In this document: piece by piece, positions 14,444-59,856 of the stretch | Position numbering within the stretch: position 1 is the stretch's first letter | Layout of the letters: the number at the start of each line of letters is the position of its first letter | Assembly (NCBI RefSeq): GCF_019649055.1 | Contig: NW_026570262.1 | Span: forward strand, 434,001 to 498,000 | Direction of reading: 5' to 3' | Length of the DNA: 64,000 bases | From: Paramacrobiotus metropolitanus | Lineage: Eukaryota; Tardigrada; Eutardigrada; Parachela; Macrobiotidae | Made by a program: the position numbers and the translations under genes | Notes under the pieces: generated by a model | Seen by the model: only the letters and a program-made list of their open reading frames with translations | Told to the model about the DNA's origin: nothing | The model's database searches: none

Positions 14444-16732
14444 TTATTCGCGCTTCAGCTTCATCACCACGCAGCCAAAATGGGACTTGGCCTGCGGCAG
14501 CCGGCATTCATGCAGCGCCCAGCTGTCCGTCTCTCGTCGTACACCTCGATGCTGTCCTGGTACACCCCTTCGGCAAAGAACCCGCCGATGACGTACAGCC
14601 TCCCACCCACGCTGACACACTCGTGACTCGAACGCTCCTCCACCAGATTGCCTGTGGTCAGAAATGACGATGTAGCCCGGTAGATTTAAGATACTTGTCG
14701 CCTGTCGGTGTTCCGACAACAGATGTCAGGATACACACGTACCTTTCTTCTGCCACTGATTGGTAACACGGTCGTACGCTTCCACGTGCACACGGAGTGC
14801 ATTATCCCACGTTTCTCCACCTAAACCATAATTACCAGTTTCACATGGCGACAATACCATAGAACAGTGAACTATGATGGTTTATCTTAATTCCTCACTT
14901 TATTGGTCAAATCATACTTCAAGCACAGAATAATGAAAAGAAGACACAAAGAACTACAACACGAAAATCTCATTTGGTTATCCAGCCCTTCCATGGTACC
15001 CAGTACTGACGCCGCACTGCCTTGTTGTACCTACCGGTGACGTAAATCAGTCCACTGGGAGCCACACACGCTCGGCAACCGATGCGTGCGGTCGGCATAT
15101 CGGCCAGTCGCCTCCAGGCGTCGGCTGCGGGATCGTAGGAGAACGCAGCATTGGAAATGCTCTCCGGGCCGCCTCCACCGAAGACATACAACCGCCCCTC
15201 ACACGCCACCATCGCTAAACCGATCAGCCCGACGGGCAGCGCGGCCACGGCGCTCCAGGAATCGCTCTTGTGATCGTACGCCTCCACGGAAGACAATGGT
15301 ACCATCCCGTGGCCATACGGACTAAAACCGCCGGCTGCGTAGATGCGGCCGTCCAGGGCGGCCAGCGCGCCCGCTTGGCGCAGTGTGGATACTCGGCCCG
15401 TCTCGTGCCATTCGCGGCGCAGGCCGGTGTAGTGGCTGTTGCGGCGTACGGTCCCGACGCAGTGCATGCTGTTGATCAGCAGCCAGCCGGGATCCAGCAT
15501 CGCCGCCGAGCAGCACTCGACGAGCTCGGGCAGATCCCGCAAGCGCCACACGGCCGGGATCGACGGGCAGAAGACGTCCACGGAGGCTTCCTCGCTGCCC
15601 ACCGGATCCTGGCAGGTTCCGCCCAGGCACAGAATCACTTCCCGTGCTCCTGACGCCAAACACATCAATTGCACAAGGAATTCCCATGGTACACCGCAAA
15701 TCACTGCGACAAGACGGTCGATCCTTACCGTATGAAGGCCGTGGATTGGCGCTCGGCGTCGTCTCATCGGCTGTTTGACTCGGGCACTGTGGCGTAACCC
15801 TAAGTGCGCTGGTGAGGATTATCGAGTGCTCCAGTTGACACTGCTCGCTCAGAAAGGCCACACGGACCATCTGCAGAACGGCGGCGGCGTGCTCCAGTCG
15901 TCCGGGACGGTCGTGATCCAGCCAGCACAGCGCCGCCTGCAACACCTGATCCTCGCTGAAGACTTCCACGTTATCCGATGCCAGCAGTGCAATCAGCTGC
16001 AAACAAGTTTAATTGAGAACGCTACCAACTGGATAGTTCAGAACAGTCTTTCCGTCATATTTTATTCCTATGTCACCTGTTGCGCGTCCAGCTCCAGAAA
16101 GTCCTGACTTTGCGCCACCTGCAGGAAGTTGAGATGGATCAATTCCAGCGCTGCCGCGGCCAGACGGGGATGGTGGTGGTTGGAGGCCAGTGCATAGACG
16201 GCAAGATAGTTGGAGACACATATGTGCTGCTCCACGTACTCCCAGCAGAGCAACTCCAGCGAACCCATCTGCAGGAACTGCGCGGCAATCACGACGCGTT
16301 CCACGTTGTCGTCGTTCAGGTCCACCTCCAACGTGTAGGCGTATTTGACCAAACTAGTCAGTCGACCAAAAATTATCGCAATTTCTAATTTACAATTTCG
16401 AATATTTAATAAGATAACAGTACAGTAATGACTGAACATCTTCAGAAATTACATTGTACTCACTCGTTCAAGGTGTGACTGTCAATGTTGCGAAGCTGAA
16501 ATACTGGTTGCGATGAGTCCTTCCAGTCCTGCGTCAAGACGGCCCGAAAGTAGGAGCTGTGCACGCTGAGGACGTTGCGATGGCAGGGAATGCCCACCGC
16601 GGACTCTTCGCATCCCTGCACGACGATATCGCACAGGGTCCCTGTCGACTGCTGCTCACGCAGTCCGCGCAGGAACTCAGCCAGACAACGGTGAGGAGGA
16701 TGATCTCCAGAACTGCTGGAACTGGACATCAT
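14444..16732 (-). CDS. BTB-BACK-Kelch protein, copy 1 (frameshift in last exon)
   Basis: Predicted substrate adaptor for a Cullin-3 ubiquitin ligase. Six exons on the minus strand: 16732-16464, 16353-16077, 15996-15729, 15649-15035, 14820-14743, 14651-14444. Exon 1 gives the BTB domain (TLCDIVVQGCEESAVGIPCH, HRNVLSVHSSYFRAVL); exons 2-3 the BACK domain (AAQFLQMGSLELLCWEYVE, EDQVLQAALCWLDHD); exons 4-6 Kelch repeats (RIYAAGGFSPYG, RLYVFGGGGPES, RLYVIGGFFAEG). All phases agree with the head-to-head paralog. The total is 1715 nt, one base short of a whole frame: near 14531-14537 VYDE is followed by an out-of-frame run, and the expected ending TDSWALHECRLPQAK...KLKRE lies in the next frame. Without correction the protein ends in about 20 aberrant residues. 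This may be a real lesion or an assembly indel. Confidence 0.85.
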
Positions 16733-17213
16733 TCAGTATGGCACTGCAAACAGTCAAGGAGGAGCAGTAGGGGCCCTACTAGGGGGTAGAACAGTTATTG
16801 ATGGACAAGTATGACTTGCATAATTTAAACCGGATTGTAGATGCAACTTCGATATCAAAACTGGAAAAGCAAAAACGGCACCTGTAGCTTTTTTACACTT
16901 GCAACTTCAGCTGCTCGAATAAAACCGTACTAGTAACTGCCGGTTTGAGGAGGTTGCCTGTGTTTTTGCGTCATCGCATGTGTTTTTGGCTTTTTGCTCT
17001 CACATTTCACAATTCCCAGTGACAAATTACAATAAGTAAAAAGATTAAAATGCGTTCAGCAAATGTTTTAAATTTTAATTGTTCATTATTAACTAGTTAC
17101 TTACGATTATTAACTAGTTACTTAACTAGTTCATTATACTAGTGCACTTACTAGTTACTATTACAAGCAAATCCTTCATTGACTACATTCCGTGTCATTT
17201 TGATTTCTGAAGG
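16733..17213. promoter_or_regulatory. Shared spacer between head-to-head Kelch genes
   Basis: 481 nt separate the two divergent start codons, so both promoters must lie here or overlap. The only notable structure is a set of near-repeats of ACTAGTTACTTA and related forms at about 17091-17161. I did not identify TATA or initiator elements with confidence. Confidence 0.45.
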
Positions 17214-20200
17214 ATGTGGGAGCCAGGCCCTGCCGAGCGACCTCTGCATGATTGTCGGGCTGAAGGATTCCTGCGCGGTCTGCGTGAACTGCAGTCGACA
17301 GGGACGCTATGCGATGTCATACTGAAAGGCTGCGAAGAATCCGCAGTGGGCATTCCTTGCCATCGCAACGTCCTCAGCGTGCATAGCGCCTACTTTCGGA
17401 CCGTTTTCACCCAGGACTGGAAAGACTCGTCGCAACCAATATTCCAGCTGCGCAACATCGACAGTCGCACCTTGAACGAGTGAGTGGCAGCGTGACACAG
17501 TTCTTTACTTTTGTTGTCACTGTTTACCTGTTAATTTTGGTTCGCGGGTAGGTTAGTAAAGTACGCCTACACGCTGGATCTTAGCCTCAACGCTGACAAC
17601 GCGGCGTCCATCTTGATTGCCGCGCAGTTTCTGCAAATGGAACCGGTGGTCCGGCTCTGCTGGAACTACGTGGAGCAGCACATGCGCCTGTGCAACTGCC
17701 TGACCGTGTATGCACTAGCTTCTAATCACCACAACCCTCCACTGGCTGCCACCGCCGTGAGCTTAATACGCCGACACTTCGTGCGCTTGTCGCAGGACAA
17801 ACAGTTTCTGGAGATGGACTCCCAACAGGTGGCGTGTCTGCTCGGTTATAAACTTGGCGATAAGCAGTCCAGAAAGTTAGGCACGAACACAGAACCATGT
17901 AGTGAAGCTTTCTTCAGTGAAAACATGCAGCGGAAACGGAATTTCGCTTAGGTAAACTGTGCCGTTTCTGCATTTATAGCTGACTGCAGTGATCGTGTCG
18001 GACGACGTGGACGTGGGCAGCGAGGATCAGGTGTTGCACACTGTGCTGCGCTGGCTGGATCACGACCGTCCCGGACGACTGGCGCACGTGCTCGCCGTCT
18101 TGAAGGGTGTTCGCGCTGCCTTGCTCAGCGCCCAGTGTCGGTTCGCCTACTCGCAGGTCCTCGGAAGTGTAGCGACGCTGATGCCGTCCTGTCTAGTCGA
18201 CGAAATGCCGACCCGTGACATGCAGAACAGTACACCGCGACATTCGATCGGTAACCATCAGCCGCATGGTGCAGCATTGATGTGGTTTCATAATGCGTTC
18301 TACTTCTTTAATAGGTTATAGTTCTTTAATAGGCAATAGCCAGAAAAATAAAAAGTGCAAGGCAGCGGGGACACCGTATTACTTTCTACAATTGAAATTT
18401 AATCGTTAAAAAACAGTCGAAGTCGCTGTCTTCCCGTCAGCTAAAAGGTTAACAAGGTCAGCTAAACGGTCAGCTAAAAGGTTAGTTAACTGGATAGTGG
18501 ATACATCTGTAACGCTCCTTTCATGACAGCCAAACTACAACTTTGTTTAAGACTTTTCAGGCGTTTTCAGCATACTGTACATACATTTCGGCATGCTAAT
18601 GCGTCGCAAAAAATATTTTTTGGTTTGCATTTTAATGAAATCATTTCCAACGTTTTTTTTTAAATCTGTAGTGTCTCTAGCTTTCTTACGGGTTTTACAT
18701 TTCTTTGAGTTCCTAAAATGTTCACGTACTTCTATACGCATTTCTTCGATATTTCAAATCTTGATTTTATGCCGAAATGTCCTTATGCTGAAATGTTGCT
18801 CAAGGAAAGAAGTAGCAGTCATGCAGCGCTTCTCCAGTAAGTTAGCAAATTTTCCTCCCCATGAATCGCAACAGTTCGCTTACAGTCGGACCGAAGATAC
18901 CCACAACATTCCAGTATCACTAAAGATGAAAAAGTGTTCAGTTAGTGATGTTATTCTTGGTGTCAGGTGCGCAGGAAGTGATCCTCTGCGTGGGCGGTGA
19001 CGGTGTGGATGGGAAGGTAGTGGCGACGGTAGACGTTTTCTGCCCATCGACAGCGACCGTGTGGCGCCTGCAGGATTTGCCAACCAGGGTGGAGCTGTGC
19101 ACGGCAGTGCTGGCGGATCCAGGTTGGATGATAATCTCCACCCGTCGCGGCCTCAAAACCATTCAACGCGACGTCCGCTACACCGACCTGTCCGGAACAT
19201 GGCACAGCATCGCCCCGATGCAAACACTACGCCATGCCGAAGGCCTGGCCGCCTTGGATGGTCGTGTTTATGCCGTCGGTGGGTACGGTCTGTATTCGGC
19301 TGAAATGCTGGCGTCCGTGGAGGTGTACGATCCCAGTGTGGATTCCTGGAGCGCCGCCGCCCCTCTTCCCGTTGGTCTGGCTTATCCGGCCTTGGTGGCG
19401 TGTGGCGGGCGGTTGTATGCGTTTGGCGGAGATAGCACGGAGAACTATGGCCATCACGGTGGTCGTGCTGCAATAGCAAGGGCGACATCGTCGGCGTTTG
19501 CCTACGAACCCGCAGTCGATACGTGGAGCAGACTAGCCGACATGCCGACCGCACGCAGCGTGTGCGTTGCCTCTGTGGCTGCCAGCGGGCTAATCTACGT
19601 TTTGGGTACGCTTTGTATTTTTTTATTAGGTTATACAAAAATAAACATTGGTTAAACTTAATCACGCAGTACATTCCTTAAGCACATAATATACCTGCTA
19701 CCAATACAGTCATTATACAGAACGTTTCTGAACGCAAGGAGCATTATCCCGCATTACGGCCATACTGATTCTCTGTGTGCTGTTGTTTGATAGGCGGCAA
19801 AATATTTAACAAAATATTTAACAAAACAAAAACTGTCGTGTTACTGTTGCTGTCCCAGCTTCCTACATGTTACTGTTATACTTTTTGTTCTCCTCACCAC
19901 CTCGCTACGGTGTAGACCGACGTATCTTGTACTAGTATGCTTTTGTATTACCACATACTTCACAGCAACGCGGCAGCACTACGTCATTAAATAGAAGAAA
20001 TTTTACCTTTGAAGAAAAGTGAAATCGTTGTCGTCCCGCGTGGTCTGAAGAACTACATAATACGGGAAGGCTGAGCTGGACTAGGGTTGAAATTACACGT
20101 TTTATGTTTAGTAATTTCCTGCGGAAAATGTTTTAGGTGGACATCTGCATTCTCACGGTCGTGCGGACGTGGATGCGTACAACTGCGTGACCAATCAGTG

Positions 20201-29692: not shown

Positions 29693-32600
29693 ATGAAGCG
29701 CCTATACTTTCGCCTGCCTCGACAGCCAGTACCCCCCGTCCGCCGCACGCGCTCCACGACAACCACCGCCCCGCGTCTCACATTCCAGGAGCTGGCCGAC
29801 CTCATGGAGCCCCAACTCGAACCCTCCTCTGTCTGGCGCAAGGCCGTGGACCGGGAAGCCTGCGTGGCGCTGTTCTTCCAGCTGAATCTGCGCAGCGACG
29901 AACCCCGCCTGGCCAAGTGCGTCTGCCTCCGTCTGCAGGAGTTCCGAGTGGGCGCCCACGCCGATCTCCGTCTCGTTCCTTCAGTCTTCCTCGACGAGCC
30001 CCTAGTCGTCCCGGAGACAGAGCCCTGTGTGCCCCTACCCCCCACCATCACCTCCGCCACGGATGTCGTTAAACTGCTGCAGAATTTCGAGCTGTATCCA
30101 CACCTGCCCGATGATGAGGAGAACGGTGTGCCGCGCACATTGCAGGAGTCTTGCGCTGAGGAATGTGGGGTGGAGGGTGTGTTGGTCATGGGGGATTCCG
30201 ATGGGGAGATGGAGTTTGTGGATGATAATGATGCTGGGGATTATTCTCCAGCTGAAGGCCTTGTAGAAGAAGGTGAGCTTGTAAGATTTAAGAATTCAGA
30301 TACAGAAACTTATTAATATTTCGATAATGTTAGGTATATTATTAATATTTTTATATTTTATTAATTAATATTTTAATATTAGTATAAGCCTGAATCTACA
30401 AAACTATTAAAAATTAATAAATAGGTAGACCAGCTAGTAAGTGAATTATTTAATAAAATATAACAAATTGCATTATTACTGTTGCAAATATTTGGGTATA
30501 AATCATTTATATCCAGATTACTCTGACTTGATGACTTGATGATTAAATTACTCTGGTATAAATTAATTAGAATGATTCCAAAATTTCAAGGTGTATCTGT
30601 TCACTGGCAGGAGCTACGCTCCGGTCTGCCAGTGAACCAATCGGTGTATCTTCCTAGTTATTTGAAATTTATAACCATAAAATTTTATAACCATATAATT
30701 TATCATGAAATTTTCATTCAGATTAGTAGCAACTAGCAGATTACACTCGTACTTATACATTGTTCTTGTCAAAAGCACTTGTTTTCACATGCAGGACCGT
30801 GATACGTTGCATTTTTTGGAGAACAATTTTTGTCTGCCTGTCGGGGAGTAATCAGCATTGGCAGTTTTGTTGCATTATCGATTTGTTTTTGCAGCTGACA
30901 CGGTGACGAAGTTGAAAGGGGAGAAGTGCAAGCCAAAAAAATTCTCTAAACGACCTAAAGCAACATCTACCCCGGGTAAGATATTTTTCAGTATTTTGTT
31001 AAAGGCTAAAAAAATTTCTGCCGAAAAATTAAAATTGTATTTAATTTCAGAATTTTTCTAAAAAATATAACACTTTTTGCCCATTGCTTTTTCGAAATAC
31101 TGCATGTGGACTTCACTTTTTAAAATCGATTGCTTGACTGCAGGTTTAAACGAGCATCTCCTGGCCTCCATGCAGCTCATCAAAGTATATCTCCATCAGG
31201 CGGGGCCAGATAAAAAAGAATTATATCCGGAAGCCGGAATGTTTGCCTGCTCGAAACTCGTGAAGAAATTCCATGAGAAACACTTTCGGCCCTTGCGCTA
31301 CAATAAAATCCACCCCCAGATGCATCGGTTAAAAGCGATGGGCGCGAGTATAGCGCTGGATCTCATCGATTCACTGGGGAAAGTCTCCGACCAACTGCCG
31401 TCACAGCAATGTGCGCTGCTGGAATTGATTGATAAAGAGTTTTTGCAGACCGTTGCAAGTGAGTTAGCGGACGCACATCTCCTTTAACTAAGAATACCAC
31501 ATTCGAATTTTATTTTTATTCTGAGTTAATAGGATTACACGGCTCAATTATTTTGGAAATTAGTAATTTTAATAAGACCTTAATAATAAACATTAATAAC
31601 TTTAGTAAGCCAGAATATTTTGTTATGTTATTACTCTTAATGGTGCAATGCTGACGGTAGTCATATGAATAACGGTTGTTATGTCGCGATATGAACATCA
31701 ATAATTGAATCATCATCTGGTATCTACAAATTTCATTTTTTCATACTCGTGTTTTTTTGTATATTTTAATATATGTTTATTTTAAATTTTATGCCGTATA
31801 ATAACCTTAGTAATTATATGTCTTGTAAATTTTAAAAATTTTATTTTTATTCCTTGTGTGTTTAATTTATGCGATTTTTTAGATCACTGCTGTTGCTTCT
31901 TGTCTGCATGTTGTTGGTTTTTATGTAGATTTTGTGAATTTGAACGATCCGCGCGTTGTGAAAGAGGATCTACCGCCGTTATCCACGGATCAGCTGCTAC
32001 GAGGAATGCGGAATAGGATCAAATATCTGAAGGTCTTACCTGAAATGCGTAAGTTGATGAGTTCTTATTTGCAGATAACAGTTTTTCGGATGTGAACGCA
32101 GCAGGCCGAATTTGTATGCATTTGCGTAATTACTGTAGTACAGAATGTATCATTGCTATTTGTTAGAATTTATATTAGGAGATTATTATAGTCACGGGAA
32201 CAGAAACCGGAAGCGTCGCACACACTGGTGTTGTTCTGTTATGTTCTGTTCATCAACGTTATACAAGCAGGTTTCTTATATAGCACTAGGTACATTCACG
32301 ATATTAGTAAGTTACTGCACCTAAACATCTGATAAACAAGGGGATTGGTGACCTGGGTGCACCGTACACTCATAGATCAGCTAGTAAGACAATGATCATA
32401 GTTCACAAGTAGATGACACATTATGAGTGTATATTATATTGGTAATATAATTTCTAACACCCCTTCACCCAGCGCGCCATATCCACTGAAATGCACACTG
32501 GTTCCAAAGGTTCTTGATTCGGATCCTTGATATCTTTACATTGATTCTCTCACGCGTTCACGTCGGCAATATTGGGCTTTATGTCCAACGATTCCACAGT

Positions 32601-35600
32601 TGGCACAAGCAGGACAGGTTGGGCACTGTCTGGTCGTATGTCCTTCCATTCCGCAGTAGTTACACTGGAACTGGTCGGTTTGATCGGTTTGATTGGTTAG
32701 ATCGGTCGGTCGGTCAGATCGGTCAGATCGGTTCATATGGTCAGATCGGTTAAAATGGTCGGATCGGTTAGATCGGTCGGATCGGTTAGATCGGTCGGAT
32801 CGGTTTGATCGGTTCGGATTCTCTCTTTCTCTCTGGTTATAGCTGGAATAGGCTGATCCAAAAGGTCCTTTAAGATATCCACGATTTTCTTCCTGGGTCT
32901 TGATCATCTGTTCTGTTAACATCAGCTTTTCACGGAAGACGCTCATCTTTGGGTCGGGGCCGGCCATCATGTTCCATGATGCCACAAAGGGTCCGTATTC
33001 AACTGGCAGGCTGGACAGTGTTTTCGAAATCAGCCACTCATCGCTGGTTTTCACGGCTTTCCCACAGGCGTCGATCTTCGATGCCAATACGTGCAGCGTT
33101 GACATGAAGGTGTTAACGTCGTCGTTATCCTTCCACTTCAGTCCGAAAAACTCAGTCATCGCGGTCATTAAGTCGCATCCAGTTTTCGGCTCCCTTAACT
33201 CTTTAATCCGATCCAAAATTTCTGCTGACGTTGCACAGTCGCGTACCTGATTGAAGGTAACCTCGTCGAGCGTTGCGCGCAGAATACTTCTTGCTTTTCC
33301 GTCTCCGGATATCCATTTATTATAAGCGGCATGCTTCTTTTCGTCTGCTGGATCATCTCTTGGTATCTTGTTGCTTCCATCCACAATGCTCCACACGCCT
33401 TCTCCAGTTAAGACGTCCTCCACTTCGACTCTCCATCGAGCGTAGTTCGAGCCATTGAGTACCGTGACCTTTATCTCCTTCAACGTTGCCATCTTGGCGT
33501 CCGTAACAGTAACAGTAGCAAACCACTATACTAGTAAGACACGGCAGATACAACTTCCTGCTTAGAGACAAGCAGGTCTCATAATCTGTTAGAATTTATA
33601 TTAGGAGATTATTATAGTCACGGGAACAGAAACCGGAAGCGTCGCACACACTGGTGTTGTTCTGTTATGTTCTGTTCATCAACGTTATACAAGCAGGTTT
33701 CTTATATAGCACTAGGTACATTCACGATATTAGTAAGTTACTGCCCCTAAACATCTGATAAACAAGGGGATTGGTGACCTGGGTGCACCGTACACTCATA
33801 GATCAGCTAGTAAGACAATGATCATAGTTCACAAGTAGATGACACATTATGAGTGTATATTATATTGGTAATATAATTTCTAACACTATTTATTGACTGT
33901 AATTTTCAGTTGTTGCTCAAAGACGATTAAAGCAACGTAAAAAGGAAGAAAGGAAACGCATAAGGACAGGCGAGACACTGCCGCCTCCAGTACTCGGACC
34001 GTCGGCACCGTCGCTGATCTCCCCATTGGACAATGGTCCATGGAATCCCGATCTCCCTTACAATCATCCCGGTAAGCACTAAGCATTCCTCTTCGTTCTC
34101 AGAACTCGTTTCCAAATATTATTTTATTGTTATGTTGTCGTTTTGCATGGTTACACACTGGAAAGTGTTTTTCTCATTTCTCAGTACACGTGGGACTGTA
34201 AAAGTGGAGTTAACCACTGACCACACTGTTTCCTTTCACTCGATTCACACCTTCCGCACTACCTTTCACTACATGTGATATTTTTTCGCAGTACCGCTCA
34301 TTCCGTCCACAACCTTTTCCCGAGTGCCTCTAAATCCGGTTCGCACGGGTTTATTCTTACTTGTTTGTTTGTTTAATCAGCTTGACGTTTACCACAGTCG
34401 GGTCAACCATGCGACGTGTTAGAGGCTAGGCTACCACGGCAGAATGTGTTATCAAACTAATGAACGCGTTACGTGAAAAACTACTAGCAGTGCCACAGTA
34501 TTCTACAGTAAAGAATACTCATCAGCATTTACAAAACGCGTAGTCCATTAAACACGATCCGGACTGGAGCCGAAAAAGGCGATGTTAACGTATCGCTGCT
34601 CCCTGGGTATCAACACAATGAGAAACGGCAGCGATTTTTTTCCCGAAACTTGAAAAAATTTTCGCCGTACGGGGAAGGCTCTTTTTGTACATTAAAGGCT
34701 AAGACCAATAGCTGGTCATTTGCATTGTTTCAGGATATTCGACTCCAAACGAATGGTTTTCGAAAAAAAATGGGGACAGCCGGGAATTGAACCCGGGACC
34801 ACCCGCACCCTAAGCGGATATCATACCCCTAGACTACTGTCCCGTAATACAATGAAGAATAATGGTCAGCATTAACGAAAAGTCTGGTCCACTTTAGGTA
34901 CTCGTACTTAAATAATATCAAGCCACTTTCCGCCACAGCTGTTGTTTAAAATTTCAATCCAAGTTTTGTAAGTGTTTCGTAAAATGATGGTGTTACTTCC
35001 AGTAAATAGCGCACGCAATTCCATTAATGTTGTCTCTAACCAGTTCATGCACGTAGAATCAGGAATTGAAATACGTATACAATAATATTGTGTATGTGAC
35101 ATTTTTTAACTTTGCAAGAATTATAATGCGGAAAATAAGTCGCGAAGTTTACTCCCCATTTTACTCATGGGAGAACGTGAAAATCGAAAGTAACGAAGTG
35201 TAGTGTGCGGTTGAATTTTTGCACAAGACCTGTACAGTGCGCGCAAACGTCAGTGTACGGAATGAAAGGAAGTGCAGAAGGTTGTGAAGCGAGAGAAAAG
35301 GTGGGAAAGGTAATTACGGGGTGGTCACTATAAGTGGATACTTTATTTTAACGCATGTTGTGGAAACAAACGCTTCTCTGTTTGCATCCAGTGCTGGCAT
35401 TTTGAAGGATCAGGGTGTGTTCTTGTTGCACACTGTTTTTAACCTTCAAGTTTCTGAACCGTGAGCCGAGTGGGAAATTGTAGTCCTACTATGTGTAATT
35501 TGTAAAGCTTTGTTATTTCAGGTATGAAATATTGGATCATTTCTTAACATGCGCTGACTTCATTATAAACAAAAAAGCGCTAGCAGTGTTTCTCTTAGAA

Positions 35601-40219: not shown

Positions 40220-43200
40220 TCATTTGCAACACCAAAACGCCTTCAGCTGGATGCGAATGTCTTTCAAACTAAAAATGAAGAAAAGAGGATCAAGCGCAGC
40301 TTGCAGCATAAACATGGTGGCAGTGATCTCGTAGACGGTCTCATCCCAGTATCCCACTAATAAGTTCATTTTCAAGAAGACCAGATTGGGAGTCCAACAA
40401 AAAAGAGCTGCCATGGTTAAGGTCGTATATATGATATGTCCACTGGATCGTTTTTGACGGGAAACGGAAACCCTGCTGCCGATACCACCGCTAGGTCGTG
40501 CGGAATCCTTACGGAGAATTCTACCGGCTGTAGCGTTGTAACCAGTGGTTTCGTCATTGGCAACCATCCGCTTGTGTCGCCTATACATTACATATGGGAA
40601 AGCACCAAAAATGATGCCTGCTGGTAGAACAAAACACCAGAACTCGGTGAAAACGATGAGCGGGTTCTGTGCGCCTGCACTAACGGTCAGTATGCAGGAC
40701 GACGTCGATTGCTGATGCCGATACCTGCAATCCAGAGAAACTGGTTCCATAATTTTCATTTGGTACTTAATTCAATAATCGCGCTACTCAGCGGAACCAA
40801 TGGGCAATGAGATTTGAAAAACCTATGAGTTGTAGCCTTTCATTTGTGCTTGCATGTATCTGAAAAATTAGTTTTTCGAGAAATTTTAAAAAATCTTGTA
40901 AGATTTTGGGCTCAACATTAAATCTAACTTTCTAATTTAATTTTCGTTTTGATTTCGTACTGTAACAGGCAAGCGCGAGGAGATCACGAGTGCACTTTAT
41001 TGACAAATAAAGGGGGAACAATGCTGCGTAATAGCAGAAAGCAAGAACAAAGCACTGATGGCTAAGCAAGCAAGTGAATGCTAGAAAGGTTCTTGAGCGT
41101 CCGTCAAGACGTGAAAGAAGCAACTGGCGGCAAGCACGTGCTGTGTGCCGTCAGCTGTGTGTTGAAGCGCAGACTGGACTCTATCCAACGCGAGCGTATG
41201 AACGCTGAGTCATACTGCGAGAGAGGAACGAGAGAGCAAGTGTGGCTCAGTGTATGCGCTGCGTATATCCGCTTCAGCGGATGAGTGCAGTGCAGCAGCA
41301 CACGTACGTACAGCGAGAGAGGCGATAACGGCAAGCAATGGTGCAAGTACGTCCAGTGTGGACCGTACGCACCAGGCGCAGTCGTACGCCTCTGACAGTA
41401 CTTACATGTACAGTGTACTTCGCAGAGGGCCTCTAGTTTTCCCGTCTGTACGTTAAGGGAAATCTTGTTTCCCCCGCACAGCTATTAAAGCGGATGGATA
41501 TTGTCTAGGGTGACACTATAGGCACCCCAAAAACCGCCGTTTACTATAGGCACCCCTTTTCCGCACCCCGTTAATTAAAGGCACCCTTATCTTATTAATT
41601 GATTCTTTCGTGCACCCTGTTTTTTATAGGCACCCCTATGAAATTTTAGCATATTATACTGTAATTGTAGTGTTAGAACCTAGATACGGTAATGTTGAAA
41701 ACTACTGCTTGTACGCTGTTGTTGTGCAAGATCGCCACGGGAAAGGTCGTCCAGTTGCACTTTGTTTTATGTCATATGAAAGGAACCACTATATCGACGC
41801 GTTTTTCACCGCCTTTAAAAACTACCACAAAGACACAGTGGAAAAACTTTGGTGTCCGAAAAGAACCCAAGGAGGCCACCCGGTGTTCGAAAAGAACCGA
41901 CAGAAAACCGGCATCCGAAATTACATACAATTTCGAAACGAAACATCAAAATTACCGCCGACGATGCCATCCTCATTAGATCTAAGTTAGCAGATCAGCC
42001 TCACCGCCCGATCATCGGATGGAAAGCCTGATTCTGTCTGTATGCGAGTATCTGTATGAGACTGACGCTCGTACAGTACATGAAATCATCTTCGAATTCT
42101 GTATCCGAAATATGCTATTAAAGGGTGCCTATAAAATACATTGACAGAGTGTTTCTATTTAATAAACAGAAAAGGGTGTCTATAAATTACGGGGTGCGAG
42201 AAGGGATGCCTATAATAAACGAGGGTGTAAGGGGTGCCTATAGTGATTTCCTATTGTCTAACCGATTCACGATGTTGAGGCTATCTGTCCGGACCAGCTT
42301 ACCATTAGCGCAGGATGACTGCCAAAATGACTGCGCACATTATCGGAAACTGTTTTTAATCCTGATTTTAGTTTTCGTTCTTCTTCGTACGACACGTTCT
42401 AACAAGTTAGGCCTGCGATCAGGCCGCACAGTGTTCCGTTGTTTCTCGATCTCGAGCTGCTTCGAGATCTCGCATTCTTTTCAAACCTGAACAGTCATTT
42501 GCTACCTGGAAGCGCTGCACAAGCAGTTCCAGTTGAGATCGATGCTTTAAAAGCATCGTTTTACTACGATCTAAGCATGTAATACAGTAAACCGAATCTG
42601 ATATTTGGTGTACCGGTAATCTATGAATTGTGAGAAGCCGCCTCTACGCGGTAGCGCATAAGGAATTCGAGCTGACTGAATGTTTTAACGTTATCGCTAC
42701 AGTACATACAGCCTGTACAGGTACAGTTGATACAGTACCATAGTGCATCGCAAGTAATCTCGGGAAGCATGAGAATATGGATGTACACCCAGTTGCCCAA
42801 ACACAGGCACACAGCGGCGGCTCTTGTATGTCGATACTTGTAGCTCATGGGAAAGGTCACCGCCCAGATGCGATTAATGGTGATTAAGGCATGCGCATGA
42901 TACATCCCGGGGTTGACGATGTACAAGACGTACAAGTAATACGTGCACATGGAGTAGGACAACTTCCACCCACCCGTCACCGTGGAGATCACGTCGAAAG
43001 GCTTAATCAGTAAAACATGCAGAAGATTTGCTGACAGCAGATTCACTAAATAAATGTTAAACGGGACATGGAACGCGTTCGCTCGGAAGAATGTTAAAAG
43101 CACCACTGTGTTTAAGATGGCGGTAATGGCAACGATGATAAGCATGACAATTGCAAAAGGATTCCATTGCTGCGGTAGTTCAAAAGAGGGGATCGTTCCG

Positions 43201-45336: not shown

Positions 45337-46486
45337 TATGAACGTTTGTGAAACAACAAGTTAAAAATTAAAATAAAATACTACGTATAATTTGAAAATA
45401 ACGCACGACTGACACGAGCCAGTGCACACAAGGCAACCTATGTGTATTACTGCAATATACCGCGGCCAAATTAGATTTTACAGCCTGTTTCGGTGCTCTC
45501 CTGGGATTCATATTTTCATTGTTTATTTCGGCTTTTATCGCCCGACAAAACATATCAGAAGATAGGAAATGTTTTTTTCTATCATTCTGCAAAAACAAAA
45601 CGGAAATTGGTCCACTACATGTTCCACAGCAGCATTTCGCAACAGACACACGATTCAAAGCATAAATTCCGTATTTTACGGAATCGTACGAAACGAATGG
45701 GGCTATGACTCACGCAAAAGAGGCGGAGATTAGTATTAGGGTCCGTATTCGTAGTGCGCAGATTACTTTCTATTAAAGGTTATTCAGCCTTATAACCGTA
45801 TGAAAGTTGACTTTGTCGATGGCTTTTTCTCGTTGGCATCCGTTTCACTTATTGAACGTATTGACAGCAGTTCACAAATGTCGGAAACGAGAAAAATGTT
45901 ACGTTTTACCCGTATGCGGATCATGCGGTGATTGATGGTTCCGGTACAGCGTGCTAAATAACAGATCCGTATCCCCCGGCATTCTCATGAGTTCGATGCC
46001 GCTGACAAGATATTATTTCTATCGCAGCGACAGCCATCAATGAGGGAGAAGATGCCGCTTTCACCGGTATTGATATTGGTTGGTTGTCCGTTTATTAACC
46101 TTAACTGGTTTTTCTGGCAGATCCTGTAGCTGTTCACCAAGTTAAGCACTAGAAGTACTCCACCAAGAAGAACCGTGATGAGCAGTTCATAAATACAGCA
46201 ATGTATTAAATACCTGACACCAAAAATACAGTATTAACTTACAAATCTGCACGTTCAGTCGGCAGTCGTTGTGGCTGCTCAAACTTTGGGTATGATCGGT
46301 ATGATATTGCGCAGCCCACGCAGTCATATTATGCCACAAACTGTTAAAATTATTAGCAGTTTGTAGTGACTACACTTTCAAAACACTTTGCTGCATGCCG
46401 TGCGTAGTGACTACACCACAGAGATTTAACCAGAATCGTAACCGGTAAACCGTTATTTTTTGTTGGTCTGTTCCATGATTGCGGTC
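45337..46486. other. Intergenic upstream of the macroglobulin array
   Basis: No supported coding region. It includes the 5' flank of copy A. Confidence 0.4.
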
Positions 46487-49400
46487 ATGCAGTTTTTGCG
46501 GATATTTTTCCCGACGCTAATGCTGATTGCAACGGTCAGCAGGGTAAAAGGGCTTCAATATGTGATGTTTGGACCGAACAGTGTGCGGCCTAACAGCCCA
46601 TTTCCCGTATCAATCCTGGTGCTCAACGCCACATCGGATGTGCGCATCGATATGGCGCTGATAGGAGGGCCGCGCTCTAACACATCGTACTCTGGCAGTA
46701 TGAATTACGCAGCTTACAATATGATGCCTTTTGCGCCGGCTTTTTTGAAAGGCGACGTCAAATTATTTATGTGCAATGCATCGGCCGTCATTCAAGCCAA
46801 TAAACTGGCTCATCTGGAGATTGCTGTACGTTACGTACTTCGAAAACTTTAATTATTTTAATATTTACGCATAAATTAAATGGAGTTCCCCGGAATTAAT
46901 AATTGTTAAGCTGGGCGTGATTGACAGGTGGACGACCTTTCCAACGTGGACGGAATGGTGTTTGCTCTTAACGGATCTGACTCGTCAGACTCTTTTTCGA
47001 CAATGTTTATTGGACCGATTGGTGTGGATAAGAGCAATGCCACTAAAGCAAAGGAGGAACCGAAAACCAAGAGCGAACCGAATATTTTCATTCAGATCGA
47101 CCAGCCGTTCTACAAAGCAAAAGATACTGTCCACTTCCGAGTCGTGTCGGTGGAATTGGTGAATGGCCAACTGCGTCCGCTTTTCGTGCCCTTTGATGTG
47201 CAGATTCTGGTAAAATTGATTCGTTTTTTTTGCAAATTTAGATTTATTTCTGAAGTATTTCCTAATTCTTCATATCTGTGCAGGATCCACAACGCAACAT
47301 CGTCCAACAGAGCAGTAACGCTAACGATACGCAAGGTTCGAAAATTAGTACTTCGCGAATAAAAGACCACAATCAGCTATCATAATGTTATGTAGCTGTT
47401 AGTTAGCGCTGCTGATTCATTTTAGTTGTCGGATACTTTTCTGGAGAAATGCCATTATCGTCGGATCCGCTGTTAGGCAGTTGGACATTGCGGGTGGTTC
47501 GCTCAAGCGATAAGAACACAACCGTACGAAATACAACTGACTTCAAAATGTGATTAACGAAACATTAATATTGTCATACATATCCTTTTTGTAGGTCGGA
47601 GCTTCTTGCCCGACCTCCTCCTCTAATTATGGGAGTAGCAGCTCCAGTGGTTATAGTGGTGGCAGTTATGGAAGCAGCAGCTACGGTGGTGGCAGTTACG
47701 GAAGTAGCGGTAACGGCGGTTACGGTGAAGGCGGTTACAGCAGTTGCGGTTACGGCGGTTGTAGCGGTGGTTATGGCAGAAAGAAAAGATATATCGGTTT
47801 CGGCTTTGGTATCAACGGTGGTGGTTTCGTTGGTCGTAACAGTCCTTATGAAAGCCGCAGTTATAATGATTCAGAAGCCTCCAACAATGCCGACGAAGAA
47901 AGTGACACCGACTGCAACCCTGCCGATAGCCATGATTTGGTGTTGGCCAGTAAACACTTCTCTGTTGATGAGTTTGGTAAATTCGCTCCTAGCTTTTTAT
48001 CCATAGATATGCAGATATGCCAGAGTGTCAACTGACAAACCTTGAATAATTCAAACTTACTACAGTTGTGCCGCGATTTGATGTCAGAATTGTAACATCG
48101 AAGAGCTACATCGTCCCACGGATGCAGGAAGATTACCGTTTCCAGGTCGCAGCGAAGTACGAAAACCGATAATTTCACATGTGCTTCGATACATTTGTAA
48201 GCGTTTCTTTTCATGAATATTTGTAGTTACACATCTGGAGAACCGGTCACGGGCACTTTTGACATAGCGGTACTTCGGCCACGCCCTCCGCATTGTTATG
48301 GGTGCTCCGAAGAGAAGGATCTGTATGATCCGGTGTGGAACTTGACCATTTCTGCGGTATGGCCAGGTTTTCCGCTAAAGAAAATCCCGCTAAGTCCCAT
48401 ATTTTGCAGGACAAAAGTGGAGCAGCATCTGTTACCGTCCCAGCAGAAACCCTTTCCTCTCTCACGGATACATCAAAAATAACCATTCGAGTAAATTTCA
48501 CGGAAACTGCCACCGGTCAGAAACGGAACGCTACTCCCGCTGTTGTATCGATCAAAACCGAAGCATATAAAATTCGCATCCAAGCGGACCCAAAGACGTT
48601 CATGCCTGGATTCCCGTACTCTTTCAGGGCCACTATTTCCGACTGGGATGACCGCCCACCACCTCCCAGTCCGAAGACAGCCCTGATAGGAATATTTGGC
48701 TATTCCTACACCGAAGGTCGCGCCAAGTTCGTATCACTGTCCGGCGATGTGAGCTGCCAGATGTATCCATCGCAGTACGGTGGCAGTTATGGAAGTCTTT
48801 ACGGACCAGGCGGCTAAGGTGGCGGTGGCTACGACAGCGGCCATCGGGGTGGCAGCTATCCTTTTGGTTTTGGGATAACCGGCGGAGGTGCTAGTAACCT
48901 CGGGGGCGGAGGCGGTTACGGTGGGGGCGGCAGTGGTTATAGAAGAAAGAGGAGCAGCGGTTTCGGTATCAACGGACTTTCACTTCGTTTGAACGGATAT
49001 TCCCAGAGCCCCAGTTTTTACGGGTCAGGTTGTCTCCCAGTCGCCGATCATCAATCTGTGGAAGTGCGTCCTGATGGAACCATTACCACCAGTTTCCCGA
49101 CTTCGAAGAACGCAACATCAATAACCGTAGTCGTATCCTATCAGGGCATAACGGAAAATAAATTTATCTACGCCAAACAATCGCCGAGTGGCAGTTTCCT
49201 TGAGATCACCCAGCTCACAAACGGTCTATGGGCTGGCAACGTGGCCGAGTTTGCTATTAATACCACGACAAGGACTGATGAAATTATTAACATCTTAGTA
49301 AGCTTAAACCTCTATAGATAAACCAATTGGTTCGTGGTTCACTCTGCACGTTATAATACTTTATGATTTCTTCAGGCCTTGTCAAGTTCCAATGCCAGTT

Positions 49401-52400
49401 TCCTATGGAGTGATTCGATTTCAAAATCGGGCAGATATGTTCAAGTATCTGTACCAATTGCCGCAGCGATGGGCGCATCGGGACGACTCATTGCGTATTA
49501 TGTGGGAAGTGACGGTGAACTCGTGGGGAATATTAAAGGGCTTACGGTTGTCAACGACACAGCAGAAAACATTGTAAGGGCAACTGGAGATTTGCATAGA
49601 AAACTGATATTATTCACGATTTACCAGTAGCTCATATTGATTCAGGCAAAGGTCACGCTGTCAACACAAGCACGAAGTGGTTTATCGTATACGGAACCGG
49701 GAGCCGAGGTCTCCGTGCAAGCTCACAGTAGCCCTTCGGCGTTTGTGGCATTCTTGCTATGGATGAAAGCCTTTTCCTGCAGATACCCGGCAACGACATT
49801 ACCCAAAATGTCGTATGTATCCGCTAAAATGATTGCATCAAACTCTTCGATGCCCCTAATGTGACGACTTTTTCAGCTGGACAAAATGCCGAAACCTAAG
49901 CAAAAAGTGCAACCGAGTGATATGCAGTCCGTCGAAGACTATTTTACGGTACTCTATAACTTGCTGAAGCTTGCTTAATCACCAGAAGGTTTGTGTTTCG
50001 CCTGTAGCGAAATATACAGCGGAATATACAGATATACAGCGAAATACACAGATTGATGACATTAAAATACAGCTGAAACATTCAGTAAAAAGCGTCGTTT
50101 AAACTCGGGCAGCATGATAGCAGAGGATGACCATTACAGCATTTGTTTTGAAAATTGCAGAAAGCAACCGATTCCGGTCCGGTGCAACAATTCCTTTTGA
50201 CAAACACTAAACTTTCCACAACATCACCTCCACGCATTCAAGATTACATCGGCTATGAATCGTCCGCTTCGGTATCTCCGTCTGATTTCGGACCGCAGCA
50301 GCCGGCTCAGGCACGCAGAGACTTCCGTCCAAGCTTCCTCTTTGAGACCGCTTGGACAAAGTAAGATATGCAATCGTAATGTCGGTCTGCTGTTGCGGTG
50401 TTGTAACGAGTGTTGTTTTTGGTAGCATCAACGGCGATGTCACCTTGACGCGTAAAGTGCCAGATGACACCACGGCATGGCGAATCTCGGCGTTCAGTCT
50501 GAGCAATACTAGCGGACTAACCGTGTCTTCGGCGCCGGTCAAGGTCTGTTTATTGTTACCCAATGAAGACCATAAGCCCAGGAATCAGCAGGCTTCTTTT
50601 ATCGTAGCTGAAAGTTTTCCAGCCATTTTTCCTAACGCTCAACCTACCGTTCAGTGTAGTCCGCCTGGAGAACCTTACAGCCGAAGTACTTGTCTTTAAC
50701 TACATGTCAACATAGCAAAACGTTACGGTCAATTTAAAGCTGCAAAATCCGGACAATACTACGGCGACATACTCGAAGAAAGTGCTGTCTATGCCGAATG
50801 AAACCACAATGGCAACATTTGTCATCATACCCGAACAGATTGGAGATCTAAATATCAAAATCACAGCGCAGTCCGAACTAGCTGCTGATCAACTGGAGAA
50901 GAATTTGAAAGTAAAGCCGAAAGGGATCAAACAGTTCTTCACTCAACCAATCCTCATCGATCTACGCAACTCTAGCGAGTTCGATATGGTCGTACCACTG
51001 CCGATAGATCCCAATGGAAAGGTCGCCGGCTCTGATAAAGTGGAAATTCGCCTCGTTGGTGATCTTTTTGGCGCTTCGCTGAATAATTTGGACAAACTTA
51101 TCCGACTTCCGTATGGGTGTGGTGAGCACAATATGGCAGTACTAAAACCCAGTGTAGCAGTGTGGAAATATCTAGAAAAGATGAATAAATTATCGGCTGC
51201 GCAGCGCAAGCAGCTGTTGAGAAATATCCAAATGGGGTAACAGAGGGAGTTAACGTACCGACGCGATGATAATTCGTTCAGCGCATGGGGACAATCCGAC
51301 TTCTACGGCTCCACATGGCTAACTGCGTACGTCGCACGAGTCTCTGCTGAAGCTGCTGAATTTTTTCCCATCATTGACGACACGGTCATTCGGAGAGCGT
51401 TGCGTTTCCTAATCGATCAGTAGCTGGAAAACGGATCGTTCGAAGAAAGCGGAAAAGTCATCGACAAGCACAACCAAGGCGGCGCGTCAAAAGGCGTCTC
51501 ATTGGCTGCTTTCACACTTCTGTCGTTCCTGCAGTACAACAGTACGGGAAAGCCTGACGTCGTTAAAATGAATATATCGCTACCAAAAGCGGTGGCGTAT
51601 CTGGAATCGCAATTGGACAACGTGAAGAACGATTCGTACGCATTGGCAATTACAGCGTACGCACTGACCAAAGCGAACAGTTCAAAGGCAATTGACGCGA
51701 TTGGTTTTCTCAACGATCGAATGGTAACCGACGTTACCACAATCCACTGGACAACTGTCCCATCGAATAATGATGAAGGTCAAGATTCCGGGCATTCGTA
51801 TTCACTCAATGCGAAAGATGTAGAAGCCACCGCTTATGCTTTGTTGGCGTACATGGCCAGCGGAAAATCAAACACATCAATATCGTTGCAAATCGTTAAC
51901 TGGTTGATATCCAAGCAGAATGCGGAAGGTGGCTTCTATTCGACAGCGGTACGTATACAATTGTGCCAAAACTGGCTTTTCGGATACTGCAGGTCTGTTT
52001 GTTTTAGGATACGGCGGTGGCGCTGCAAGCGTTAGCTGAATTTGCAGTAGCGTTTAGCAGTCCATCATCGCTGCAAATCGATGTTACTGATGAAATTCAA
52101 AAAAGCGGTTTAAGCATTACTCCCGAAACGTCTTTAGTAACACAGTCGGTTGAGTTTTCGACCAAGCCAGAAGATATCGTGATTCACGCCCGAGGCAGCG
52201 GAGTCGCCATAGCCTACTTGAGTTGGACGTACCACGTGGTAGAAACCAAAGAAGACATGGCGTTTGACCTTAATGTCACATACGCTACTGCATCGACCAA
52301 GGAGAACCGCTTAAACATCTGTACAGCGTGAGTACAACATTCTTTTTTTTCAAATTACACGTTTTCGTTTATGCGGAGGTGTTACCAATGGAGATCTTGC

Positions 52401-52799
52401 AGGTATTTGAAAGATGGCGCCAGCAGCATGGCGGTTGTCGAGATCAGCGCTCTTTCAGGTTATCAATTCGATGAAGAAGAGGTCAAACATCTTCCGCGAA
52501 CACTTGAGGCGCTGCGAAAAAGCGAAGTGGACAGCAAGGACACTAAGCTCAGTTTGTATTTTGACGAGGTGATTCTTCCGACATATCATCAGCTTTCTGA
52601 TCTGTCTCAAGAGCACATCCACGATAATTATCTTTTTTTGCAGATTACACCGACGGCCAAATGCTTCACTGTGACCATGTACCGAATCTACAAAGTGGAC
52701 AACATTAAGAAACAGAGTGTTGTCGTTTATGATTACTACAACCCCAAAGAACGACGGACCGTCTTGTACGCCCCACTGTTTTACGGTGCTTCCGTTTGA
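46487..52799 (+). pseudogene. Alpha-2-macroglobulin/TEP family, copy A (degenerate)
   Basis: Seventeen exons with the same layout as copy B: 46487-46825, 46928-47209, 47284-47335, 47426-47523, 47595-47976, 48066-48156, 48227-48356, 48410-49297, 49376-49573, 49646-49809, 49877-49948, 50161-50360, 50426-50543, 50608-51948, 52008-52327, 52403-52568, 52644-52799. It starts with a signal peptide (FLRIFFPTLMLIATVSRVKG) and has macroglobulin domains, the bait-like TDSGPVQQFLLTNTK exon, a thioester-domain region with GCGEH in place of GCGEQ, and the receptor-binding domain. Splice sites and phases are preserved, but in-frame stops occur at 48815-48817, 50713-50715, 51238-51240 and 51421-51423, and one base is missing near 49755. 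Two Gly/Tyr-rich segments with dibasic sites (GYGRKKRY in exon 5, GYRRKRSS in exon 8) are present. ATG 46475 is an alternative start. Confidence 0.9.
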
Positions 52800-53799
52800 T
52801 TCTGAACCGCCTTGTTTTGTTGGATTTTGTGCCAGCGATTTCTGTTATGCTGTTTAAGCCCGTCTTAATCAAACGAATGATATATCTGGGACAACCATTG
52901 TCGGCCAAGCTTTCGTATGTTAATAGTATATGTAGATGTACATGGCCATTAAACAAATCGTTATACCAATGTGTACAGTGCAAAAAAGTTTCAAAACCGT
53001 CATTCATCCCATCGCGGAAACGACGAAAACATTCGCAGTCAAACACTGAAATGATATAAATAAATTTTAGTTTATTTACTTAGTTTTATTAAATCAACAA
53101 CAAGCAGGCCACTTAATCGTCAAGCCCTTGGATATCGTACCAACACAGCTCGCAGTTTTTGGAATGACAACATCCGCTTGTTTGTTTAGCGTGTGTTTGT
53201 TTGCGAACTTCTTGAGCTTAGTCAAATTTTGCCGAAAGGGAAAGCTGTTTGCATTAATTCTGTCGTTATGGCTCATGATGGTGATTATGGCGCATGTGAC
53301 AGTGTGATCCGTATCCTCAGGCATATCCTGCTCGGTTAAATACCATGGTGCACAAATTAAACCGGCTGCAACACTTCACTGCGGTTACTCGTAAGTTCGT
53401 AACAGAAAACGAGTGCCGGCTGTGCACAGCGTTACGATTCAACACTATGATGGTGGTTGACCGATAACTTGTTTCAGAAATGAATCTGGCGATTTTCCAC
53501 CTGACTACCTATTACTAATCTTAGTAGAGATTCTCATAAACATAAAGAGATCCAGTTATGTTCAGCTGTCAGTACCGGCGCTGGGTAGTCACGGATGTTG
53601 CCTGCAGCTCTCCAAGAACAGAACGGCAACTCATCGTTGCTTGTATCACATTATTTAATACCGCTAGAGCGCATCATACTTTACACTATTAAAAAACGCG
53701 TGTTGAAGTTCTCAAGCTAATAGCTTATTTCGAAAGCATTTTCTTGCGTAGTGATGCATAATAAAGTGCTGCTGTAAAGTGTCAACACAGTCGACAACA
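52800..53799. other. Spacer between macroglobulin copies A and B
   Basis: 1 kb without a supported gene. It probably holds the 3' UTR of A (AAATAAA near 53056) and the promoter of B. Confidence 0.45.
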
Positions 53800-56700
53800 A
53801 TGCATCTTTGGCCGAAATGCGTCTTGACATCTGCGCTTCTATTGGCCGTTAGTGTTAGCGGGCTTGAGTATGTGATTCTCGCACCGAACATTATTCGGTC
53901 CGACAGTAAATTTCCGGTATCGGTTCTTGTGCATAACGCCACATCAGATGTGCATATCGATGTGGCGCTGGTTGGAAAACCGACAGCCAACGATGGTGAC
54001 ACCTTGGTGTTCAAAAATTCGGCCGTTGTGCAAACGGACAAATTGGCTGTTATGGAAATCGATGTACGTATTCCCTATTACGGCTATTACAATGGACATT
54101 ACTATTAGGTGTCAGAGTGTGATGCAGTAGTGACAGTGCCACTGTCACTACTGCATCACAGTAATTAAACAATTTGTTCTAATCAAATGAAACGTTACTG
54201 TTGCGAAAAAAGTAAGTTGTTTGATTTACGTATAATGTTAATAACAGTATTTTTAATTCACGCATATTTAATAAGGTTGGTGACCTTTCGAGTCTTGTGA
54301 GCGGATCAATGGCGTGCATCGTTAATGGATCCGACTCATCAGATTCCTTTCGTACCAGTTATGGACCCCTGACAATAAGCACGACTACGACAGCGGAAAA
54401 CCCGAAAAACAGCGGCGAACCCCTTGTCTTCATACAAACCGATAAGCCGGTATACAGTCCCAACGACACAGTACGCTTCCGTGTCGTGTCGGTAAAAAGA
54501 GTGGGCAACAAACTGATGCCTGTGTTCGTGCCATTCTATGTCCAGATTTTGGTAAGCCATAATTTTCTTGATAACCAGTTTCGCGCATCAAACATCACCA
54601 TTTTCGGTATCACATCTGTCTAATTTCAACAGGACTGGAAGTGCAATGTTGTGCAACAATTTAGCAACGCTAACGACACACGAGGTTCGAACACCGTGCA
54701 TTTCAAATAGCTTGCCCGCAGAATTTAACAGTAAAGCAATTTTTGCAGTCGCCGGGTATTTTGCGGGAGAAGTGCCGTTATCCGCATATTTGCAAAACGC
54801 AGGTTGGTCAATTCGCGCGGTGGTCCGCGCCCCGGATGACACCAATAACAGCCTTGGAAATCCAGTACGTTCTCTGATTTTACAAAGAACTTAAGCACTT
54901 CGGTGTTGTATACTTGCAGAAAAAACGCAGCTATAGGAATTTTGGCACAATTAAGCACTACTGTAATACAAAGTAATTTAAAATTTACCCGTGAGACGTT
55001 TGCTTCGCACACTCTATTATTTTAGTCCAGAGATTTTGACCTCGATCCACGCTGCGACCCCAGCAAAGAGCCTACAAGCGTAGAGGAGGAACTGATCCGC
55101 CGTCACACGCCCCGTGATCCTTCCGATCCTGTACTGGCTAGTAAAATCTTCCTCATCGAAAGCTATCGTAAGTGAAATGACTTATTCAACACCATAAAAT
55201 GCTTGATCGTTACTTTTTGTCTCATTCAACACCTCGCAGCTAAGTCGAGATTCGAAGTTCGAATAGTAACCCCGAAGACCTACTATGTTCCATCAATAGA
55301 TGGAGAATTCCGCTTCGAAGTCATCGCTGAGTAAGTACTGTTTACCAATACCGGCAATACGCCCCCCTCGCTATTTTTGCTGCATATACGCTGTATCTGG
55401 TTTGTTTTAATAGCTACACACCCGGAGAAAGCGTCATAGGAAAATTTGACGTCAGAGTTAGCCGACCGCGTTATGAGGATGGCGTTTATGTTGCTGTATG
55501 GAATCAGTCCATTTCTCCGGTAAAAATCTGCTGATTCAAAAGCGATGCTCTCTACATTTGGAAGCGAACTATAAGACCAAGATTACAACGTTGCAGGGAC
55601 AATTCCGGTCTATTTCCGTGCCGGCACAAACGGTGATGACCGACTCCGACGAGTTCGATACCAAAGTTATCATCGAAGTTGACTTTACCGAAGTCGCTAC
55701 CGGGCATCAAGAGCAGGCTAAAGCTATCGTTGTGCTGCGAACGGAAGCGTATATTATCAAGATTAACGCGGGCAAGAAGACCTTCTTACCTGGATATCCG
55801 TTTTGGCTGACGGCTACGATCTCTGACTGGGACGGTCGCCCGCCACCTCCCAGCACCAAAAAAGTGCAAGTGGATGTGTTCTATTACGTTTACGATTCAC
55901 TTGGCCAGTCGAAGAGGGTTTCGCTGAGCGGCGGTGTGAGCTGCGCTGGACAGAGATTTCCGCCTTCGTACGGCGGCGGCTATGGCAGTGGTGGCTATGG
56001 TGGTAATGGTTACGGTGGTGATGGGTACGGTAGTGGTCGCGGTTACGGAAGAAAAAAGCGCAGCCTGGGTTTTGGTTCGTCGTGGTACGGTAGTAACGAC
56101 GGCTGTAACGCGCTCCCTGATACGCAGTTTGCGGAAATTCACGCCGACGGAACAGTTTACTTCGACATAGCTCCTCCAAAGAATGCTGGTGAAGTCGCAA
56201 TCACCGTTGCGTACGAGGGAAAGGTGGACGCTGTCAGTCTCCTGGCGAAACAATCTCCCAGCGGGAGTTTCTTGGAGATCCTGCAGGAAAGCGAATTGAT
56301 CGCCGGGGAAGTGGCAGAATCACGGCCATAAAGCGGACCAATGAACCGCTTCACGTTGTGGTATGTTTTCAAATACCTCGGGGCTTATGGTACTGAACAT
56401 TCGAACTACAATCCACAACGTCTTTCAGGTGCTGTCCAGCTCGAATTCCAGTTTCCTGTGGAGCGATTCGATTGTTAGAGCCGGTCATTTTGTAATGGCA
56501 TTCGTACCGATTGCGGAAGCGATGGGTCTAGCAGGACGACTGATCGTGTATTACGTTGCGAGCGATGGCGAACTGGTTGGAAACATTATGGCGCTGTCGG
56601 TTGTCGATGATAGAGTATGTTTAATGCATACTCCTGCAGTGAAGTACTCATACAAGTTGTGGAGTCCATGAAACTGAATGACTTTGTTTTATGAATCTAT

Positions 56701-59700: not shown

Positions 59701-59856
59701 TATAAGGTAACAACGTCTGGCATGTGCTTCCGTGTGACGATGTACCGCCTCTACAAAGTGGAAAATCTCCAGAATCAGACAATTGTGATCTACGATTATT
59801 TTAATCCCAAAGATCGACGTATGGTTTCTTATGATGGTCCGTCTCACGCTTTTTGA
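53800..59856 (+). CDS. Alpha-2-macroglobulin/TEP family, copy B (thioester-less)
   Basis: Secreted complement-like or protease-trapping protein. Seventeen exons: 53800-54063, 54276-54551, 54633-54684, 54749-54864, 55026-55167, 55240-55330, 55414-55519, 55597-56360, 56429-56614, 56703-56864, 56924-57007, 57089-57384, 57460-57577, 57643-59009, 59074-59390, 59463-59628, 59707-59856. They total about 1552 aa if two one-base gaps are allowed (near 56318, GAATC; near 57748, CAGCG). Signal peptide: CVLTSALLLAVSVSG. Macroglobulin domains follow; exon 8 has SDWDGRPPPPS and then a Gly/Tyr-rich run ending GRKKRS, a furin-type site. The bait-like region is TDSGPVQQFLLTNTK. The thioester-domain core is LPLGCGENSLALM: the Gln needed for the thioester is Asn. 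The receptor-binding domain ends YDYFNPKDRR. The two gaps may be assembly errors, since no stops are present. Confidence 0.9.
54118..54160. repeat. Perfect 21-bp inverted repeat, 1-nt loop
   Basis: Arms 54118-54138 and 54140-54160 (TGTGATGCAGTAGTGACAGTG and its complement) are exact. It lies in intron 1 of copy B. It could extrude as a cruciform or form an RNA hairpin. Confidence 0.9.

Follow-up and report, generated by a model that had tools for sequence, protein, structure and literature searches.

What kind of retrotransposon carries gag and nothing else between its long terminal repeats (LTRs), and how does it come to be without pol? The question is raised by a locus at 32161-33885 in a 64-kb window (the whole stretch of 64,000 nucleotides that was analyzed, positions 434,001 to 498,000 of contig NW_026570262.1 of the tardigrade Paramacrobiotus metropolitanus). 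This locus is very probably a recent insertion of a copia-type LTR retrotransposon that is non-autonomous and encodes only Gag. Its two LTRs match, its target site duplication (TSD) is exact, and a purine tract is present; Gag is intact and combines a copia-type capsid region with two zinc knuckles. An earlier reading of this DNA (the original prediction) had further proposed that the element is a retrocopy of a spliced gag transcript and that it now mobilizes as a unit.

Anatomy of the element

The element is 1,725 bp long, runs on the minus strand, and occurs once in the window. The coordinates given in the original prediction are exact; the strand, which it did not give, makes 33587-33885 the 5' LTR. 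The two LTRs (32161-32459 and 33587-33885) are 299 bp each, start with TGTTAG, and end with CTAACA. As had been claimed, they differ at only one of 299 positions (33745 vs. 32319, G/T on the element strand), and the TSD is exact, with CTATT on both sides. Near-identical LTRs, TG..CA ends, and a short exact TSD are the features of an LTR retrotransposon. The features of the locus are as follows; most are read off the sequence, and other sources are given in parentheses.

32049 to 33909, plus strand: putative host intron, with a GTAAG donor at 32049 and a TTTTCAG acceptor ending at 33909
32156 to 32160: left copy of the TSD, CTATT, exact over 5 bp
32161 to 32459, minus strand: 3' LTR, 299 bp, TGTTAG...CTAACA
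32460 to 32466, minus strand: short polypurine tract GAAGGGG, a 7-base purine run that adjoins the 3' LTR
32457 to 32549, minus strand: stop-free frame of 31 codons, +1 relative to gag, with a TGT TAG end spanning the LTR edge
32536 to 33492, minus strand: gag open reading frame (ORF), 318 codons plus stop, intact (ORF call, Pfam)
32566 to 32607, minus strand: zinc knuckle 2, CX2CX4HX4C, residues 296-309 (motif)
32623 to 32664, minus strand: zinc knuckle 1, CX2CX4HX4C, residues 277-290 (motif)
32675 to 32819, minus strand: 9/18-bp tandem repeat within gag, giving an NRSD-rich linker from capsid to nucleocapsid
32893 to 33414, minus strand: predicted capsid region, PF14223 copia-type Gag, residues 27-200 (Pfam)
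33576 to 33586, minus strand: candidate primer binding site, 11 nt, adjoining the 5' LTR (fit to a vertebrate tRNA)
33587 to 33885, minus strand: 5' LTR, 299 bp; TATATAA word at position 178 of the LTR
33886 to 33890: right copy of the TSD, CTATT

Gag runs from 33492 to 32536 without an internal stop. Measured from stop to stop its frame is 329 codons; single-base shuffling of the 1,127-bp internal region, repeated 500 times, gave frames of at most 179 codons. The Pfam family PF14223 (gag-polypeptide of LTR copia-type) matches residues 27-200 with an E-value of 3.7e-20, in agreement with the original prediction, which had called Gag intact and copia-type. Among proteins of solved structure, the best match is the Drosophila Copia virus-like particle (VLP) protein, 8vvw (whole-sequence E-value 2.5e-4), although it is weak in its best single stretch (Gag residues 11-212, independent E-value 0.026). 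Both matches are to Gag proteins of the Ty1/copia superfamily. The assignment of a capsid region is a prediction from sequence. Two CCHC zinc knuckles lie C-terminal to the NRSD-rich linker. The tandem repeat that encodes this linker (a run of N-R-S-D residues) may differ in length between copies.

The leader between the 5' LTR and gag is 94 bp. The 11 nt next to the 5' LTR can pair fully with the anticodon region of elongator tRNA-Met, taken as the vertebrate sequence and not that of the host. Initiator tRNA-Met, also of vertebrates, fits this site over only 3 nt. A fragment of Met-tRNA is thus likely to prime from these 11 nt, as far as the vertebrate tRNA represents that of the host.

In the mechanism that we propose, the LTR promoter would drive an RNA encoding Gag. 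This RNA would be packaged in particles, with protease, reverse transcriptase, and integrase supplied by an autonomous relative. The tRNA fragment would prime cDNA synthesis, and integration would have produced the 5-bp duplication. The loss of pol may date from this copy itself or from an older source element.

Absence of pol and its possible origins

The claim that pol is absent holds: a crude six-frame motif scan of the window gives no convincing signature, and the stop codon of gag is 76 bp (from coordinates) before the 3' LTR. Gag is without a D[ST]G word. In the same scan, by which diverged remnants would be missed, the protease and RNase H patterns have no match, and the other four pol patterns have 11 loose matches. 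These are one reverse transcriptase-type word (23792), one QPPG-type word (3187), two HHCC-type matches (one at 43764, the other being Gag's own linker and first knuckle), and seven matches to an integrase word of very low stringency, of which one (32632) falls within the element but on the opposite strand. All 11 were rejected as pol, being judged chance matches from their position and looseness. Autonomous Ty1/copia elements have pol in the order protease, integrase, reverse transcriptase, and RNase H; the motif scan leaves no accepted pol signature in the element, which is therefore classed as copia-derived and non-autonomous, not as an autonomous copia.

The 31-codon frame at 32549-32457 has no Pfam match, and by hand arithmetic a frame of this length stays stop-free by chance in about 23% of cases. 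That it is a remnant of the C-terminus of pol is a guess.

The insertion is recent. One difference in 299 sites corresponds to about 0.05-0.15 million years, with upper bounds of 0.27-0.85 million years, under three assumed substitution rates (1.1e-8 to 3.5e-8 per site per year). Note that LTR identity dates the insertion and not the loss of pol, since a fresh copy of an old gag-only source would look identical.

How was pol lost? Our default explanation, towards which we lean, is an internal deletion between short matching sequences, arising mostly by a template switch in reverse transcription, or else in repair, in this copy or in a recent source copy. Deletion derivatives of LTR elements are common. 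In pineapple, consensus sequences assigned to TR-GAG or other non-autonomous elements are reported to be probably built from such derivatives (PMC6022998). Against a deletion is the fact that gag, the primer binding site, and the polypurine tract are all spared, which is a favorable outcome for a random event. Placing the junction needs a full-length parent; otherwise neither microhomology nor splice sites can be seen, and this holds equally for a deletion and for a spliced-RNA origin.

A separate question, whose answer overlaps with either route of loss, is whether the element belongs to an established gag-only family that has long spread by itself, so that the loss of pol is old and the LTRs date only this insertion. 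We regard this as plausible but somewhat doubtful. The young copy has an intact Gag frame, as a member of such a family would; had pol been lost in this copy itself, however, an intact gag would be just as likely. Many plant species have gag-only elements (PMC8704663), and 353 gag-only consensus sequences are reported from pineapple (PMC6022998). Only one copy lies within the window, which speaks against such a family and leaves the earlier statement that the element mobilizes as a unit unsupported.

The route put forward in the original prediction, by way of a copied spliced gag RNA, is conceivable but in our judgment unlikely. The parent would splice out most of pol, and the short RNA, with both ends retained, would be packaged, reverse transcribed, and inserted. 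Its premise is sound, as copia-type elements do make a spliced gag mRNA in Drosophila (PMC3735527, PMC12522962). In Drosophila copia the segment spliced out is 2,950 nt long and takes in nearly all of pol (PMC3735527), and the gag isoform is confirmed by long reads (PMC12522962). It is also reported that intron-marked reporters, among which LINE-1 is named, reveal spliced RNA copied back to DNA (PMC12786077). The element fits this route in having lost everything from just past the second zinc knuckle to near the 3' LTR, and it has an AG-G word 10 bp past the gag stop (32526/32525). Such a word is, however, expected by chance. The 100 bp leading up to the 3' LTR contain two [A/C]AG-G words (the second, at 32463/32462, is inside the purine tract) compared with about 0.8 expected by hand, and these numbers decide nothing on a splice junction.

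That a spliced RNA would give exactly this structure, as had been stated, is too strong. The spliced RNA of Drosophila copia encodes Gag plus protease (PMC11835246), and a retrocopy of that pattern would keep protease with Gag; motif scans find none in the element, neither as a D[ST]G word in Gag nor as a protease match in any of the six frames. Two plant systems also speak against the route. Spliced copies of BARE are reported not to be amplified from barley genomic DNA, and the packaged BARE transcripts are of the unspliced kind (PMC3735527). The spliced BARE RNA is also without the R repeat, so the barley result need not hold for other elements (PMC3735527). In Arabidopsis, the short spliced GAG RNA of EVD is prematurely terminated (PMC8892269), and we infer that it would lack 3' signals.

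Still more doubtful is the full proposal that the spliced gag RNA of an animal copia element was reverse transcribed into a gag-only form, and that this form now spreads as a unit on the enzymes of its parent. If true, each splicing event would provide the family with a ready-made parasite, or with spare Gag. Among the literature matches listed (titles and opening abstracts), none reports a copy of spliced copia gag RNA in genomic DNA.

Several observations weigh against the reading of the locus as a young, mobile gag-only element. The LTR is without an AATAAA or ATTAAA word, and its poly(A) signal, if any, is non-canonical. A single AlphaFold run on Gag without an alignment gives no usable model (mean predicted local distance difference test score, pLDDT, 37.5). 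No helper or parent is found in viral, prokaryotic, phage, and plasmid collections, and no second copy in the window. A blastn search of the window with the whole element returns only the element itself, its LTRs, and the internal repeat, and tblastn with Gag gives outside the element only short matches with E-values of 0.48 or worse. In the collections, Gag has two pattern matches in viral contigs and 16 in bacterial and archaeal genome contigs, none confirmed, and no tblastn match in phages and plasmids at an E-value of 0.01. Four DNA patterns (leader, 3' tail, LTR, and second zinc knuckle) have no match each in viral contigs. For a eukaryotic element a null result is expected in such collections, so these say little on a eukaryotic parent. 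Since no helper, parent, or second copy is seen, mobility in trans is a supposition.

An assembly artefact, in which the repetitive pol of a full-length element was dropped, would also count against this reading. Young LTR elements are difficult to assemble, yet the assembled locus has the two LTRs and the two TSD copies and runs without a break from gag into the LTR, and we consider an artefact very improbable. Least probable of all is that Gag is retained as a host or self restriction factor in the manner of Ty1 p22, a Gag-derived protein that blocks particle function in yeast (PMC7055915), as Gag is full and has both knuckles, the retrotransposon ends are complete, and the locus is a young intronic antisense insertion that bears no sign of host use.

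Genomic setting

The element appears to sit antisense inside an intron of a plus-strand host gene, as judged from the splice-site words at 32049 and 33909. Joining the two exons that flank this putative intron results in an open frame. Subtracting the insertion leaves an intron of about 131 bp.

A tRNA-Pro (AGG) gene is found on the minus strand at 34772-34843, 887 bp from the element, which is on its downstream side; targeting is not claimed. This tRNA is the only Rfam match at gathering scores. Six of the ten window ORFs tested have Pfam matches (a rhodopsin-type receptor, a kelch protein, two thioester-domain proteins, an amidase, and a ZSWIM-type protein). The remaining four, including both of those tested upstream of the element and the nearest one tested downstream, have no Pfam match.

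Other reading frames stand out elsewhere in the window. The ORF at 41550-41987 (plus strand) has a ZSWIM1/3 RNase H-like domain (Pfam E-value 2e-6), a family related to MULE transposases. From 46442 to 63042 (plus strand), the translations of consecutive frames resemble pieces of thioester-domain genes (alpha-2-macroglobulin type), and both of the ORFs tested there match the thioester domain (TED). Kelch-type frames, paralogue-like from their translations, exist on both strands at 14970-19655; one was tested in Pfam.

Comparison with known systems

The kind of element is already known. TR-GAG elements have two LTRs and Gag, or Gag plus protease, as the sole protein domain (PMC6022998), and this is the composition found here; the element is a further gag-only LTR element, otherwise ordinary. 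In structure it is best read as similar to the TR-GAG elements of plants. In the literature matches listed, most descriptions of gag-only LTR elements come from plants: of 30 TR-GAG matches from two overlapping sets, 28 have plant titles, and the two others are the TIP_finder software paper and a paper on the brown alga Ectocarpus, in which the term occurs only in the reference list. In sunflower, six TR-GAG transcripts are reported (PMC9784723).

AT5TE33540 (ATCOPIA63) of Arabidopsis is alike in being copia-type, with two LTRs around a sole Gag ORF and no enzyme (PMC8704663). It makes new insertions in ddm1 plants, and its full-length relative AT3TE48480 is proposed as the helper (PMC8704663). 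It differs in its plant host, in the length of Gag (562 aa vs. 318 aa here), and in that a full-length relative is known (PMC8704663). In barley, BARE1 and BARE2 are also of the copia superfamily; a spliced RNA is made for Gag only, and one partner uses the proteins of the other (PMC3735527). BARE2 is the reverse of the present case, as it cannot make Gag but keeps pol, and the BARE1 splice removes only 104 nt (PMC3735527).

Among animal elements, Drosophila copia is alike in its VLP protein, which Gag matches weakly. Drosophila copia primes from an internal fragment of its initiator tRNA (half-tRNA priming). The site in the element similarly corresponds to an internal Met-tRNA fragment, but with the vertebrate tRNAs it fits the elongator and not the initiator tRNA-Met, unlike Drosophila copia. 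The element has two zinc knuckles, compared with one in the aligned part of the Drosophila Copia chain. The protease that the spliced Drosophila RNA encodes with Gag (PMC11835246) is a further difference. CM-gag of Culex pipiens is, by its title, an animal transposable-like element in which gag is the sole gene (Genetica 1997, cited in PMC3286476); the title, on which this comparison is based, does not establish LTRs or copia type for CM-gag. Beside these systems, a young animal copy with an intact Gag, a likely primer binding site, and a polypurine tract would lend itself well to the question of whether such parasites can be seeded by spliced gag RNAs.

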